In this document: positions 57,886 to 64,000 of the stretch, in pieces
Layout of the letters: the number at the start of each line of letters is the position of its first letter
Numbering within the stretch: the stretch's first letter is position 1
Source: Defluviitaleaceae bacterium
Lineage (GTDB): Bacteria > Bacillota > Clostridia > Lachnospirales > WQUN01
DNA: 64,000 bases
Assembly: GCA_009780585.1 (NCBI GenBank)
Contig: WQZS01000003.1
Span: forward strand, 62,001-126,000
Direction of reading: 5' to 3'
Made by a program: the position numbers and the translations under genes
Notes under the pieces: generated by a model
Database searches by the model: none
What the model was told of the DNA's origin: nothing
Seen by the model: the letters and a program-made list of their open reading frames with translations, nothing else

Positions 57886-58839
57886 ATGTACACATTGGAA
57901 AACCGTAGGTTCTTTAAATGCACGTTGAAGGAACGGGCATCCTGTATGGACGTTGTCGAAACCGTCGTGGATTTGGCGAACACCGCGCGCAAGGAAGGCG
58001 TACTGGCGTTGGAGGACCGCGCCGTAAACATGGACGACCCTTTCATCCAAAAAGGGCTGATGCTGATTGTGGACGGCACCGACCCCGAGTTGGTATATGA
58101 TATCTTGCGGGTGGAAATCGTAACCTCGCAGCGGGAGGGTGCCGCGCTGCTGCGGTGGGTAATGGCGCTGGAAGGTCTGCTCTCCATCCAAGCCGGGGAG
58201 AACCCCCGCATCATCGAGGAAAAATTAAAGGGCTTCATCGGTTTCGACGCGTTGGAATCCTTCGATGAAGAATTAAATAAAAAACCGCGTGTGAAGGTTC
58301 CCAACCCCCTGTGGGAAGGCAAATGCGATAAAATCCGTACCCGCAACCGTGCCCGCATCAGGGAAATCAAACATTTGCGGGATACCGTAAACCGCCAATC
58401 CGCTATTATATTTGAGTTGAGAAATAAAAATAACGCTATCGAAGCAGCGCAACCGCGGGAGGGTGACACCCCCGAAATTGCAAACGCTTCCGTATCGGCA
58501 AACATCTCCGCATCCGCAAACACCCCCGAAGCCACGGACACCCTCTCCGCAAAAACGTTCACCTTCGAGGATTTCCTTGCCTTCCCCAACCGCGACATAC
58601 AAATCATACTGCGCGAGGTTGACCAAACGGATTTTTCCATTGCCCTAAAAAGCGCGTCCGAAGCCTTAAAAACCCACTTCTTCGCTAACCTGTCAAAGCG
58701 CCTTGGTGAATTTATTAAAGAAAATATGTCACTCATGGGCGAGCTTCGCCCGGCGGACATAGAGGAAGCGCAACTAAAAATAATCAACATCGCCCGCCGC
58801 TTACAGGACTGCGGCGAAATTGTGGGGTGCCCGATATGA
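57886..58839 (+). CDS. Soluble MotA-cytoplasmic/FliG-C-like fusion, paralog 2
   Basis: A 317-aa protein with no membrane helix. Residues 34-117 match MotA's cytoplasmic sequence: TARKEGVLALEDRAVNMDDP, LMLIVDGTDPELVYDIL, then directly LEGLLSIQAGENPRIIEEKL. In MotA these two parts are separated by membrane helices 3 and 4, which are precisely missing. A basic linker and a low-complexity Ala/Ser/Thr stretch (about 135-222) lead to a FliG C-terminal domain (226-313: NRDIQIILREVDQTDFSIAL, NLSKRLGEFIKENMSLMG, ADIEEAQLKIINIARRL). Both interacting surfaces of the flagellar stator-rotor contact thus sit in one chain. AAAGG lies upstream. The stop overlaps the YjjG-like gene by 4 nt. Function unknown. 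Confidence 0.8.
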   Translation: MYTLENRRFFKCTLKERASCMDVVETVVDLANTARKEGVLALEDRAVNMDDPFIQKGLMLIVDGTDPELVYDILRVEIVTSQREGAALLRWVMALEGLLSIQAGENPRIIEEKLKGFIGFDALESFDEELNKKPRVKVPNPLWEGKCDKIRTRNRARIREIKHLRDTVNRQSAIIFELRNKNNAIEAAQPREGDTPEIANASVSANISASANTPEATDTLSAKTFTFEDFLAFPNRDIQIILREVDQTDFSIALKSASEALKTHFFANLSKRLGEFIKENMSLMGELRPADIEEAQLKIINIARRLQDCGEIVGCPI

Positions 58840-59950: not shown

Positions 59951-61018
59951 TTATTTCAACGGAAACACCAACTCCGGGTATTTATCCCGCATATGGTTAA
60001 TCGCGGGCTTCAATTCCTCGAACCCGCCGCAGCCGTCCACACGGTTGGAAGTCCAAGGCATGACGCCCTGCCAGCCGTTATCGAAGGCGTTTTGGTAATC
60101 CTCCGTAAGCGTATACCCCGCCGAGCCGTTGGCGGCACATTCGCCCAGTACCGCGGGCTTAGGGGGCCACAAGCCCCATCCGCCGGAAGCGGGTGAGCCG
60201 AAGGGCTTGACTTGGAAGGGCGAGCCGTAATGCTTACCCACCCAATCGTAATAATGCGGGGAATAGAAATCGATGTAAGCGTTTTTGTTCGGATAAATGC
60301 TTTGCAAGAAAGCGTCGGAAACCTTGTCCCCTTCGTAGCGGGCGTTGTCCTCGTAGCCCTCGAAGCCGTCGGAATGGTACTTGGGGAAGGAGAGCCCGAC
60401 GGTTACGGGTACGTCGGAATTTTCATGGATGGCTGCCGCCGCGCGAGCGAAATAGCGGGAAAGGTCCTCCCATGCCAGGTTGCCACGGTATTCCTCCTCG
60501 TGGGCCCAATCGGGTTCGTTCATCAAGTCGATGCTCCACAGGTAGGGATTTTCCTTGTAACGCAGGGTAAACGGGATTACATAATGCTTGACGAAGGCAT
60601 CGACCTTTTCGTCGGTCAGCACCATTTTGCGCCAACGGCTTGCGTCGGGCCGTTCGTCGTTGCGGTTTTGGAAATGGTCGAAGGAGGTCAGCGTCGCCAT
60701 GATGTAGATTTGGTGGCGTTCGGCGGCGGCGAAGAAGAGGTCGAGGTCGTCCCAATGCTTCCGCGATGTGCCGCTTACCGTGCCTTCCTCGTCGATAATG
60801 ACCGCGCCCTGGTTGTTGTTACAGTTGACCCATACGCGGGTGGCGTTGAGCCCGTTTTCGTGCAGCAGCGCGAAGTGCTCGTTCCACCACGCGTCGTTGT
60901 ATTCGCCGCCGAAGTCGTTCCACTTGTTCCACGGAGTGTTTGCCCCGTTGATCCAAATCCGCTTACCGTCCACCATGAAATGCTCACCTTGGATGGTGAT
61001 TTTTTTATTTGCGCCCAT
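59951..61018 (-). CDS. Glycoside hydrolase family 5-like enzyme
   Basis: A 355-aa TIM-barrel glycosidase. The two catalytic glutamates are clear: E168 in WSIDLMNEPDW (acid/base) and E293 in PAVLGECAANG (nucleophile). The N-terminal HFMVDGKRIWINGANTPWNK is typical of GH5 mannanase/cellulase-like enzymes that act on beta-glucan or mannan oligosaccharides. No signal peptide or carbohydrate-binding module, so it should act inside the cell on imported oligosaccharides. Divergent from the GH172 gene. Confidence 0.83.
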   Translation of the reverse strand: MGANKKITIQGEHFMVDGKRIWINGANTPWNKWNDFGGEYNDAWWNEHFALLHENGLNATRVWVNCNNNQGAVIIDEEGTVSGTSRKHWDDLDLFFAAAERHQIYIMATLTSFDHFQNRNDERPDASRWRKMVLTDEKVDAFVKHYVIPFTLRYKENPYLWSIDLMNEPDWAHEEEYRGNLAWEDLSRYFARAAAAIHENSDVPVTVGLSFPKYHSDGFEGYEDNARYEGDKVSDAFLQSIYPNKNAYIDFYSPHYYDWVGKHYGSPFQVKPFGSPASGGWGLWPPKPAVLGECAANGSAGYTLTEDYQNAFDNGWQGVMPWTSNRVDGCGGFEELKPAINHMRDKYPELVFPLK

Positions 61019-61137: not shown

Positions 61138-62244
61138 ATGTTTGACTTATCGAACATCACCCGCATCACCTCCGGCACCACGCGCCTTTTCTCCCCCGAA
61201 AACGTTTACGCCGAAAAAGGCAAGGGCGGCATGGCAGACACAAGCGATACGCCGCAGGAGGAAGTCGTACGCATCGGGCAGCAATGGGAAAATAACAAAG
61301 CCGCCCGCGAATTGGGGCAAAAGTGGAAGGTGCGCCCCTGCATCACCATCCCCGCAGGGGACACAGCCACCATCATGGATACCCAAGGCCCGGGGCGCAT
61401 CACGCACATATGGTTTACCGTGGACCAGAAGCGCTTCCGCGATTTGGTTCTGCGCATGTATTGGGACGGCGAAGCGGAACCCAGCGTGGAGTCCCCCGTA
61501 GGCGATTTCTTTTGCTGCGGTTTTTCGAAGGCATTGGCGATAACGGCCTTGCCGATTAACGTCAATCCGACAGGCGGTATGAATTCTTATTTCCCCATGC
61601 CTTTCCGCCAATCGGCGAGGATCACGGTGGAGAACCGCGGCGTGGAGGATTGCGGCGGCTTCTTCTACGCCATTTCCATGGACGAAGCTCCCGTCGCCGA
61701 CGATGAGGCGTACTTCCACGCCAAGTTTCGCCGCACCAACCCCCTGCCTTACGGCGAGGATTATTTGATTATCGACGGCATCAAAGGCGCGGGTCACTAT
61801 GTAGGAACGCAAATCGCCTGGCAGCAGAATTCCAACGGCTGGTGGGGCGAAGGCGAGGTAAAGGCGTTTATCGACGGCGAAAAGGAATTCCCCGGCTATT
61901 GCGGCACGGGCACGGAGGACTACTTCGGCGGCGCGTGGTGCTACAACGCCAATTATTCGGCGCCGTTCCTCGGGTATCAAGACTTGATGGCGCTTGGTTT
62001 GTTCGGGCAGAAGCGCGAAACCAACGTGACCGGTAACCGCCATTCCATGTACCGCTTCCATATCATGGACCCCATTCGTTTTAAAAAGGACTTGAAAATC
62101 GTCGTGCAAGCTATCGGCTGGCGCAGCGAATGGCGTTACTTGCCGTTGCAAGACGATATTTCATCCGTAGCGTACTGGTACCAAAGCGAGACGCATAATA
62201 AATTTGAACCGCTGGGTGACCGCAACGCGCTGGAAGTAATATAA
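61138..62244 (+). CDS. DUF2961 protein, glycoside hydrolase family 172
   Basis: A 368-aa protein of the DUF2961 family: GPGRITHIWFTVDQKRFRDL, RMYWDGEAEPSVESPVGDFF and the signature YCGTGTEDYFGGAWCYN (about 258-274), which contains the catalytic glutamate of GH172. Characterised members cleave difructose dianhydride, arabinofuranosides or fructofuranosides. No signal peptide. AAAGGAG lies 8 nt before the ATG. The HD-APH fusion gene starts right after its stop. Confidence 0.88.
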   Translation: MFDLSNITRITSGTTRLFSPENVYAEKGKGGMADTSDTPQEEVVRIGQQWENNKAARELGQKWKVRPCITIPAGDTATIMDTQGPGRITHIWFTVDQKRFRDLVLRMYWDGEAEPSVESPVGDFFCCGFSKALAITALPINVNPTGGMNSYFPMPFRQSARITVENRGVEDCGGFFYAISMDEAPVADDEAYFHAKFRRTNPLPYGEDYLIIDGIKGAGHYVGTQIAWQQNSNGWWGEGEVKAFIDGEKEFPGYCGTGTEDYFGGAWCYNANYSAPFLGYQDLMALGLFGQKRETNVTGNRHSMYRFHIMDPIRFKKDLKIVVQAIGWRSEWRYLPLQDDISSVAYWYQSETHNKFEPLGDRNALEVI

Positions 62245-63975
62245 ATGTACGAAACCATCAAGGAACGCTTCCTTGCCTATACCAACGCCTTGCCCTTGAC
62301 ACAAGAGCAACGCGAAGTAGCGAATACCATCAAGCTCGACCATACCCTGCGTGTGGTCGAGCTTTCCGATGTTTTGGCGCGTTCGGTATTCGGCGACGAC
62401 CCCGCCCGTATCGGGCTGGCGAAGGTCATCGGCTTATTGCATGATATCGGGCGCTGGGAGCAGGTTCTTTCGGCGGGCGCGTTCAGCGATACGCAAAGCG
62501 ACCACGGCGCGATGGGCGCAAACGCCGTAATCCGCACCGGCATGATTCATGATTTAAGCGAATCCGATCAAGCCCTAATCCTGACCGCAATCCGCGAACA
62601 TAACAAAAAATATTCCGCGTCCCATGACCCCGAAACGCAAGCCTTTGTGGACATCGTGCGCGACGCGGACAAGGTGGACGGTTTTTACGTAAACGTGAAG
62701 AACTACAGCCTTTCAAGCGACGAATGGAAGCGGGTACTGCCCATGTTCCTGCCCTTCTCCCACGAGATGAGGCTGTCCGACGGCTTGTACGACGCCATCA
62801 TGGAGGAACGGCTTGCCGATTCCGCCGAGCGGCAGACGGTCATCGACTTCCGCTTTTTCATCATGGCGTGGGTGTATGACATGAAGCTGGAAAAGAGCAT
62901 GGAAATCCTCCGCGAAAAAGGATACCTCCACACCTTGTACAACGACATCCCCAACCCCGACGAGCGCATGACGCGGGCTTACCGGAAAATCTGTGATTTC
63001 ATAACACCCGAATATTTGTTTACCCGGGAGATTGCGGATTGGGACGCGTGGGGGAAGGTTTTCCAATCCGCCGAAGCCTTTACGCCCCTTGCCGCCCATA
63101 TTTTTGAAAAGGAAAACCTACCCTTCGCACCGTTGGAAAACACGACCCCCGGCACGAACGCCGTGTTCAAATCCGGCGAATATGTAATCAAAATCTTTGC
63201 GCCCCATGCCAGCGAAGGGGCTACCCTGCGGGAGACCTTCGGCACGAACGTGGATGTGGAGATGTTCGGGATGCGGTGGGCGGAAGCGCAGGGCGTACCC
63301 GCGCCGCGCCTCATCGCCCACGGGGAGGTTAAGGATAAATATAATTTCAAGTACATGGTCATGGATTACATCAAGGGTGAGCTGTTCAACGACGTGGAAA
63401 AACGCCTGACCTACGACGAAAAGGTCATCATCGGGCAAAAGGTGCGCGCCATCACCGACAAATTGAACCAACCCTGCGAAAACTTTAACAAAATTGACAT
63501 GATGGAATACGCCTTCGCCGACCCCTCATGGGAGGACGAAGGCTTCCCCGCGTCCTTCCAAGCGGAACGGATGGCGTATTTACGGGACTTTGACACCGAT
63601 GCGTACAAGCACCCACGAGCCTCCGATGCCGCAGCATACGAAAAAGTATACTGCCACGCGGACTTCCACGGGGAGAATATCCTGGTGGACGAAAACCTGG
63701 ACGTATACCTCGTAGACTTCGCCGATGCCATGTACGCCCCCGCCCAATATGAACAGGTGTACGTCGTAAGCGCGTTGTTCTGCTTCGAAAAGCCGTACAT
63801 GCGCGGCTATTTCGGCGAATACAACACGGAGGAAATCGTTGACCTATGCATGGTGTGGCTGCCCATACACGTATGGGGACATTCCACGATTACCGGCCAT
63901 TTTAAGCCCGTGTCGGAAATTACGTCGTTTGAAGTTTTGCGGGAAAAGCTGCGCGCTTTAATCGAAAAATCATAG
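62245..63975 (+). CDS. HD domain fused to an aminoglycoside-phosphotransferase-like kinase
   Basis: A 576-aa two-domain protein. Residues 1-260 form an HD phosphohydrolase domain (H33 in LDHTLRVV, H66-D67 in LLHDIGRWEQ, H119 in REHNKKY, D142 in RDADKVDG). Residues about 285-576 are a protein-kinase-fold small-molecule kinase of the APH family: ATP lysine K316 in VIKIFAPH, catalytic loop HADFHGENILVDENLD (D473, N478) and metal-binding VDFAD (D491). All key residues of both domains are present, so one chain may both add and remove phosphate, or sense and act. The ATG follows the GH172 stop directly. The substrate may be a sugar or other metabolite of the preceding glycosidases. Confidence 0.8.
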   Translation: MYETIKERFLAYTNALPLTQEQREVANTIKLDHTLRVVELSDVLARSVFGDDPARIGLAKVIGLLHDIGRWEQVLSAGAFSDTQSDHGAMGANAVIRTGMIHDLSESDQALILTAIREHNKKYSASHDPETQAFVDIVRDADKVDGFYVNVKNYSLSSDEWKRVLPMFLPFSHEMRLSDGLYDAIMEERLADSAERQTVIDFRFFIMAWVYDMKLEKSMEILREKGYLHTLYNDIPNPDERMTRAYRKICDFITPEYLFTREIADWDAWGKVFQSAEAFTPLAAHIFEKENLPFAPLENTTPGTNAVFKSGEYVIKIFAPHASEGATLRETFGTNVDVEMFGMRWAEAQGVPAPRLIAHGEVKDKYNFKYMVMDYIKGELFNDVEKRLTYDEKVIIGQKVRAITDKLNQPCENFNKIDMMEYAFADPSWEDEGFPASFQAERMAYLRDFDTDAYKHPRASDAAAYEKVYCHADFHGENILVDENLDVYLVDFADAMYAPAQYEQVYVVSALFCFEKPYMRGYFGEYNTEEIVDLCMVWLPIHVWGHSTITGHFKPVSEITSFEVLREKLRALIEKS

Positions 63976-64000
63976 AAAGCCTTGAACGGTTTTACATCCA

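Follow-up and report, generated by a model that had tools for sequence, protein, structure and literature searches.

An HD-domain phosphohydrolase fused to an APH-type kinase in two Defluviitaleaceae genomes

A gene that joins a phosphohydrolase domain of the HD type to a kinase domain of the APH type raises two questions, namely whether the joining is genuine and what such a chain would do. The gene lies at the end of the window, by which we mean the whole 64,000-nucleotide stretch of a Defluviitaleaceae genome (G000) that was analysed, and it is a single uninterrupted frame from an ATG start to a TAG stop. Pfam places an HD domain at residues 32-145 (32.9 bits against a cut-off of 22) and an APH domain at residues 343-515 (59 bits against 23.2), and the source genome holds the gene in single copy. 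The features of the gene and of its surroundings are collected in Table 1. The inverted repeat, seen by eye, starts at the stop codon of the fusion, and its second arm lies just past the end of the window.

Table 1. Positions, within the window, of the fusion gene, its main residues and its neighbours
Feature	Positions	Strand	Basis
Whole HD-APH fusion gene, 576 aa	62245..63975	+	open reading frame, Pfam and copy in a second species
HD half, residues 1-252	62245..63000	+	Pfam HD 62338-62679; AlphaFold2 pLDDT 92.4
HD metal ligand H33	62341..62343	+	alignment; motif as in the accessible part of PMC8177086
HD metal ligands H66-D67	62440..62445	+	alignment
HD ligand H87, first extra histidine of the two-metal motif	62503..62505	+	alignment; accessible part of PMC8177086
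HD ligand H119, second extra histidine	62599..62601	+	alignment; accessible part of PMC8177086
HD metal ligand D140	62662..62664	+	alignment
Join, residues 253-257 (ITPEY), from HD protein end to APH protein start	63001..63015	+
APH kinase half, residues 258-576	63016..63972	+	Pfam APH 63271-63789; modelled as 253-576, pLDDT 90.0
Kinase Lys K316	63190..63192	+	alignment
Catalytic Asp D473, HxD motif	63661..63663	+	alignment
D491-F492-A493-D494, Mg-binding Asp and Asp at the 'DFG+1' place (APH2 group)	63715..63726	+
GGAAG, Shine-Dalgarno-like, 8 nt upstream of the ATG, within the end of the GH172 gene	62232..62236	+	by eye
Inverted repeat, first arm, terminator-like, at gene end	63973..63984	.	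by eye in L002 and L033
GH172 (DUF2961) neighbour, stop codon touching the fusion ATG	61138..62244	+	Pfam
Mannanase-like (GH5-type) neighbour	59951..61018	-	PDB profile match

The same gene was found in a second genome, the Defluviitaleaceae MAG Lab288P3bin217 (G002, contig WRDO01000031.1), which we take to come from a termite-gut sample. There the open frame has 583 aa (582 aa from the ATG), its product is 89% identical to the protein of the window over residues 1-576, and the two genes share about 88% DNA identity with no stop or frame shift. A preliminary description of this DNA had named, as the result that would refute it, homologs encoded by two separate genes and a fusion caused by sequencing; that check fails because the second species has the same fused gene, and it is relatives outside these two genomes that carry the HD or the APH half as a separate gene. 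An assembly or sequencing error is hardly conceivable, since two separately assembled genomes both have the uninterrupted fusion, and we regard it as nearly certain that the fusion and its two-domain architecture are genuine. The surroundings are shared as well, the order LacZ-like, FliG_C-like, YjjG-like HAD, mannanase-like, GH172 and fusion being common to both genomes, with an extra 266-aa frame between the HAD and the mannanase-like genes in G002, where the neighbours were named from the analysis of the window copies.

Between the two genomes the HD half has a dN of 0.111 and a dS of 0.930, and the APH half has values of 0.031 and 0.341 (Nei-Gojobori, NG86). With dN/dS near 0.1 in each, both halves are held by selection, and purifying selection acts on them alike. 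These values bear on the reading that the join was accidental and kept without function, one half being a passenger. Such a reading would fit the several kinase relatives that are broken (by one TAG in G010, by a split across frames in G126 and G032), from which the kinase gene family appears dispensable, but the low dN/dS in both halves and the intact catalytic residues argue against it, and we hold it to be quite improbable.

Synonymous divergence is uneven along the fusion, with a drop near codon 190, within the HD half and away from the join; in a comparison of positions 62245-63975 of the window with the copy at L033 8001-9749, codons 1-190 carry far more of it than the remainder. A recombination tract within the HD half is possible, and the step points to exchange, or to rates that differ along the gene, once the fusion had formed. 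That recombination took place at the join itself was rejected, since the step in dS lies near codon 190 and not at the join.

How the halves were joined can be read from their stand-alone relatives. In another genome of the same genus (G004) the HD protein stands alone, is 251 aa long and 51% identical, and ends at a point corresponding to residue 252-253 of the fusion; four stand-alone APH relatives of the same bacterial family begin with MSLFT (two of them), MQLFN or MHLFN where the fusion reads EYLFT or KFLFT. Since these ends and starts match the borders of the join, the chain appears to be two complete proteins joined end to end with about five residues added, and the joining of the two genes would have taken place in an ancestor of the two termite-gut Defluviitaleaceae species. 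Separate translation of the APH half was rejected, as the two species have no start codon in common at the join (TTG in G000, TTA in G002) and no Shine-Dalgarno sequence was seen there by eye.

The trees of the single domains were built separately. In the HD tree (46 domains, leaving out duplicate loci, L065 on a phage contig and the weak L056) the fused HD halves of G000 and G002 group with the G004 protein at a support of 100/100; the 8 fusions among these 46 domains are an upward-biased share, L106-L110 having been fetched because of their long frames. In the APH tree (25 domains, leaving out the fragments L011, L013, L017 and L105, the weak L058, L059 and L061, and duplicates) the fused APH halves fall within a clade of eight family f1 APHs, at a support of 100/99.

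An architecture survey, as the preliminary description had proposed, was carried out through full-protein searches of 146 relatives and of draws of 391 (class), 398 (phylum) and 392 (order) genomes; the draws overlap, and scoring in them was limited to three candidates per genome. Genomes with a match numbered 29, 33, 36 and 74, respectively. Among the matches listed in these four surveys, both halves occur in one frame in G000 and G002 and in no other genome, and the remaining matching genomes have one half only, alone or with another partner. None of those listed has HD and APH as separate genes, adjacent or apart, so the step before the fusion is one that we infer. A scan of genome contigs (genome_contigs), which finds close relatives only, returned 6 loci, among which is the G002 fusion. 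Matches in plasmids (11 records, all from Enterococcus) concern the APH part only, with a best identity of 37.5%, and of the two phage records one matches the APH only (37.5%) and the other the HD only; viral contigs, searched with short exact patterns sensitive to close relatives only, gave no match. A phage or plasmid origin of the fusion was rejected because no full-length match was found in plasmids, phages or viral contigs, and a role in anti-phage defence because PADLOC gave weak matches only, the fusion scoring 1.3e-4 at best. In the open-licence PMC literature we found no description of a chain that combines an HD hydrolase with an APH-type kinase. The domains are of known kinds and the combination is new: a real, conserved and rare two-enzyme chain.

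To characterise the halves, an alignment of fusion, HD-only and APH-only rows together (A3) was made; it was misaligned, and the halves were therefore modelled separately. The APH alignment (A2) left out L017, L042, L045, L057, L058, L059, L061, the near-identical L063 and L064 and the split genes L011/L037 and L013, and it holds L036 as a partial row (the part of a broken gene after the stop). The statement of the preliminary description that both domains, on a single chain, keep their key residues is borne out: K316, E339, D473, N478, D491 and D494 (64, 87, 221, 226, 239 and 242 in the numbering of the half) are identical in all 20 aligned kinase rows, one of them partial, and the ligands of the HD half are equally constant (see below). 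Model and alignment agree that the whole domain has the APH fold and holds the catalytic Lys, Glu, Asp, Asn and Asp.

A profile search of the PDB with the APH half gave hygromycin-B 7''-O-kinase (E 4.6e-19), followed by spectinomycin kinase (3.8e-12). The AlphaFold2 model superposes on APH(7'')-Ia (6iy9) with a Z of 25.5 over 298 residues and an rmsd of 3.3, and the next-best chain reaches a Z of 17.7; plain Foldseek places the spectinomycin kinase APH(9)-Ia on top, with amicoumacin and choline kinases close behind. APH folds comprise choline, amino-sugar and other kinases too. An Asp follows the DFG-like motif (DFxD, here DFAD) in 20 of 20 rows, which the accessible part of PMC4702295 describes as a mark of APH2, with DFTD in the hygromycin B kinase. 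Judged by its model, the kinase half has its closest counterpart in APH(7'')-Ia, the hygromycin B kinase, with which it shares the whole-domain fold, an N-terminal stretch before the kinase core and the HxD and DFxD motifs; it differs from it in sequence (21% identity), in being fused to an HD domain and in its score with the NCBIfam model of APH(7'')-Ia (NF000137), which at 26.2 bits is far below the 640-bit cut-off. To our knowledge APH(7'')-Ia is not a fusion protein. The C-terminal half would then be a small-molecule kinase of the APH2 group that uses ATP or GTP and stands nearest to APH(7'')-Ia; it may phosphorylate aminoglycosides or aminocyclitol-like compounds at a hydroxyl beside an amino group.

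The preliminary description evoked a resistance-like enzyme with built-in control; such control is conceivable, and the resistance-like character fits the kinase half, through its likeness to APH(7'')-Ia and through the ant(6)-Ia and AAC contexts of its relatives. Twelve plasmid or phage records have an APH match, and in all three that were opened (two Enterococcus plasmids and one S. suis phage) the APH relative precedes ant(6)-Ia by about 2 kb. This relative (37.5% identity; L062/L063 8995-9912, L064 6995-7912) stands in Enterococcus/Streptococcus suis multiresistance clusters; it is not annotated as a resistance gene in the opened records, being a hypothetical protein in the phage record, and its accession, WP_002328887, did not turn up in the open-licence PMC literature. 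Around chromosomal stand-alone APH relatives, no drug-resistance gene was found in most of the contexts read by eye, and the neighbours are mixed, for example fumarase genes (G030) or two GNAT genes (G033), also by eye.

In two genomes of one genus (G076 and G095) an APH relative follows, in the same chain, a GNAT domain that scores best with the NCBIfam model of the AAC(6')-Ie family (162.9 and 156.3 bits, below the cut-off of 340). In G076, the one context examined for this fusion, the next gene is AAC(3)-like (PF02522, 167 bits), with NCBIfam AAC(3) scores below the cut-offs. The fused pair is located at L018 1414-2913 (-) and L019 910-2412 (+), and the AAC(3)-like neighbour at L079 6437-7240 (-). 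This fusion is a candidate for a second kind of AAC-APH bifunctional enzyme. Two-enzyme drug-modifying proteins are already known. As in AAC(6')-Ie/APH(2'')-Ia, two enzymes share one chain in the fusion of the window and the C-terminal one is an APH2-type kinase, and the two relatives just described have an AAC(6')-Ie-like partner; its own N-terminal part, however, is an HD hydrolase and not an acetyltransferase, and its kinase is nearer to APH(7''). The HD partner is not an acetyl-, nucleotidyl- or second phosphotransferase, so the chain differs from a bifunctional aminoglycoside-modifying enzyme, in which both domains modify drugs. The small APH(7'')-like branch, found on enterococcal multiresistance plasmids and, elsewhere, in an AAC(6')-Ie-like fusion, provides candidate aminoglycoside kinases.

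Turning to the HD half, all 23 aligned rows agree in H33, H66, D67, H87, H119 and D140 (alignment A1, which left out L025, L053, L065, L056, L031 and L060), and K30, R70, D82, N120, R139, D142, K143 and D145 are likewise invariant. The half therefore has the six-ligand motif H...HD...H...H...D in all rows, which according to the accessible part of PMC8177086 is diagnostic of a two-metal site, YqeK being the phosphatase example. The AlphaFold2 model is nearly all helical, and VIA-align relates it to 2pq7 (Z 14.4), PPX/GppA (14.2 and 13.3), YpgQ (13.3) and the YqeK protein SP1746 (Z 11.2, 25% identity over 118 residues); since helical bundles can reach values of about 10-14 by chance, we relied on the motif and on the sequence profile. 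The latter has 2pq7 as its best match (E 8.4e-6), and Foldseek gave nothing for the HD model at E <= 0.001 (best E 0.014). The predicted HD hydrolase 2pq7 is thus the nearest structure by profile and also the top VIA-align row, tied with PPX (160 residues, 22% identity); it differs in being shorter than the HD half of the window, and it is named merely as a predicted hydrolase.

With YqeK, the HD-domain Ap4A hydrolase, the half shares the six-ligand two-metal motif and a fusion to another enzyme, the HD of YqeK being also fused to a nucleotide-handling transferase, NadD (accessible parts of PMC8177086 and PMC9426524); it is different in length, with 252 residues against 187-195 in solved YqeK chains. 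The HD half of the window does not match the YqeK model TIGR00488 at E 0.1, and this model matches 5 of the 23 HD members weakly (best 1.6e-4). Three residues after the HD Asp, all 23 rows have Arg70, at the position where the accessible text of PMC11857287 reports the active-site Lys62 of S. pyogenes YqeK. Three residues ahead of the first His all have Lys30, where an Arg is typical of HD-domain phosphatases as far as the accessible part of PMC8177086 describes them; Lys30 could play the same role as this Arg. Identity with YqeK was rejected, given the lack of a family-model match and the replacement of Arg and Lys by Lys30 and Arg70. In all 23 rows Asn120 comes after His119, in place of the double His of HD-GYP proteins and HD phosphodiesterases (H...HD...H...HH...D in the same part of PMC8177086). 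For an HD oxygenase (PhnZ, TmpB), a further possible reading of this half, the matches are weak, TIGR03276 with one of the 23 members at E 0.071 and the TmpB profile at E 0.021.

Further indications come from the partners of this HD subfamily, which elsewhere is fused to Nudix (G1111), Maf (G1028), HAD_2 (G085, G1113 and G1074) and Cof-type HAD (G1078) domains. Loci with HD fusions of this set, all from family f5, are L106 1134-2507 (-), L107 1328-2890 (+), L108 1128-2612 (-), L109 1511-3103 (+), L110 1234-2832 (-) and L028 601-2238 (+), and by eye the HAD_2-HD genes L078/G085 and L108/G1113 adjoin a GMP synthase-like gene. Maf proteins are nucleotide pyrophosphatases according to the accessible part of PMC3899018. 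Fusion of the subfamily to Nudix, Maf and HAD enzymes suggests that the HD half is a nucleotide or phospho-metabolite hydrolase. The G004 gene for the stand-alone HD protein lies between genes for a nicotinate phosphoribosyltransferase and an MFS_2 sugar transporter, its open frame overlapping both, the transporter gene at its end, and these neighbours would point both ways, to nucleotides and to sugars. Near the same gene, L070 4392-6629 (+) encodes a Peripla_BP sugar-binding domain joined to a GGDEF diguanylate cyclase. The N-terminal half would be a two-metal HD hydrolase acting on a nucleotide-like phosphoanhydride or phosphomonoester, YqeK-like or house-cleaning-like, and the subfamily, whose partners include Nudix, Maf, HAD and APH enzymes, may represent a new kind of house-cleaning hydrolase.

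From these results we tentatively favour a bifunctional enzyme, a resistance-type kinase and a nucleotide-type hydrolase with separate reactions on one chain, at a little under an even chance; that the labour is divided in this manner between the HD and APH halves is quite possible, if short of probable. The two activities would have stayed on one chain because both are of use in a common stress or detoxification state.

The two halves might instead form a coupled pair, in which the HD domain acts on the product, a by-product or the substrate of the kinase, as a proofreader, as an off-switch or as the first step of a phosphate relocation (one phosphate removed and another added elsewhere). In the five genomes of the genus, each of the three kinase copies found has a phosphohydrolase as its fusion partner, HD in G000 and G002 and Metallophos in G003; in the latter the kinase is followed by the Metallophos protein with no stop between them, in an 874-aa frame, so that Metallophos stands at the opposite, C-terminal end. 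The orthologous Metallophos protein of G000 and G002 has a different N-terminal domain, joined at the same boundary. In G000 this domain is an APH by Pfam (31.7 bits); that of G002 is homologous to it and did not reach an APH match at E 1e-4, and neither matches the profile of the window APH family. The genes concerned are L112 814-3177 (-) (G000:C17) and L113 568-2925 (+) (G002:C36), with a weakly APH-like domain and a purple-acid-phosphatase-like Metallophos, and L034 7956-10577 (G003), with an APH(7'')-like kinase and the same Metallophos protein. A pair of this kind is favoured by the tethering of all three kinase copies, by the kinase-like N-terminus (with its APH match in G000 only) at a common boundary of the Metallophos ortholog, and by the precedent of YqeK, whose HD domain fused to NadD is proposed, in the accessible part of PMC9426524, to remove the wrong products of NadD.

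Fusions of APH domains to other partners also occur in the bacterial family. A PF01636 search of 38 family genomes found APH in at least 37, some of it in long frames, and of nine frames examined by Pfam five join APH to another domain (Metallophos, GrpB, Nudix, Pkinase or DUF402), one has Metallophos with no APH reaching the threshold, and the other three have APH alone. The GrpB-APH, APH-Nudix, APH-Pkinase and DUF402-APH set is found at L117 496-2784 (-), L118 835-2313 (-), L123 1351-3180 (+) and L134 391-2853 (-). As APH fusions are not rare in the family, a fusion is by itself no proof of coupling; the HD subfamily, too, occurs joined to at least four other kinds of enzyme, the partners look interchangeable, and the APH-Metallophos join of G003 was seen in one genome only. 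A coupled pair is, in our judgement, doubtful. Rather unlikely is the wider proposal that the tethering of an APH-type kinase to a phosphohydrolase is a selected feature of the genus, by which a single aminated small molecule would pass through a phosphate relay or substrate cycle. If true, the tether would be a built-in reverse gear, by which a compound is detoxified and the phosphate is then reset or relocated; no description of such a device for resistance kinases was met in the open-licence PMC literature.

The last reading to be weighed concerns sugars. The preliminary description had considered a sugar phosphate as substrate on the basis of the glycosidase neighbours, and accordingly the kinase could phosphorylate a sugar or amino sugar freed by glycosidases, for example the GH172, mannanase-like and LacZ-like enzymes encoded upstream, and the HD domain could trim the sugar phosphate. 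The first neighbour matches DUF2961 with 301.8 bits, which we take to be GH172; the best PDB match of the second is a beta-1,4-mannanase (E 4.1e-16), with no Pfam match at 1e-3, its GH5 label being that of the preliminary description and not of Pfam. Since the GH172 stop codon touches the ATG of the fusion and GGAAG precedes it, translational coupling of the fusion to GH172 is likely, and this arrangement, together with the conservation of the whole block in G002, speaks for a sugar substrate. GH172 is present in 4 of the 5 genomes of the genus, however, and G003 has the divergent pair as in the window (75% identity for the mannanase-like protein) without the fusion, its APH gene being on another contig and no HD match being found there; in G001 the GH172 gene lies near a contig end and neither half has a match. 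By these two genomes the glycosidase link of the fusion itself is lineage-specific, and together with the scattered carbohydrate genes near some relatives it is weak, though not negligible, evidence for a sugar substrate.

These carbohydrate genes are of several kinds. The APH of G346 adjoins a GH31 gene, that of G122 has a GH3 gene at a distance of about 3 kb, and a GH2/epimerase/GH130 group stands at least about 3 kb away from the broken APH gene of G010; Mannitol_dh occurs near the HD gene of G094. These gut genomes are rich in carbohydrate genes. The neighbours of G346, G122, G010 and G004 give more weight to the sugar reading and less to the favoured one, a bifunctional enzyme with two separate reactions, but they vary from case to case, and none was seen by eye in G030, G033, G016 and G031. 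A sugar is the less likely substrate, and the reading as a whole we consider unlikely. In the same block of the window, between the LacZ-like and the YjjG-like genes, positions 57886-58839 (+) encode a 317-aa FliG_C protein (101.7 bits).
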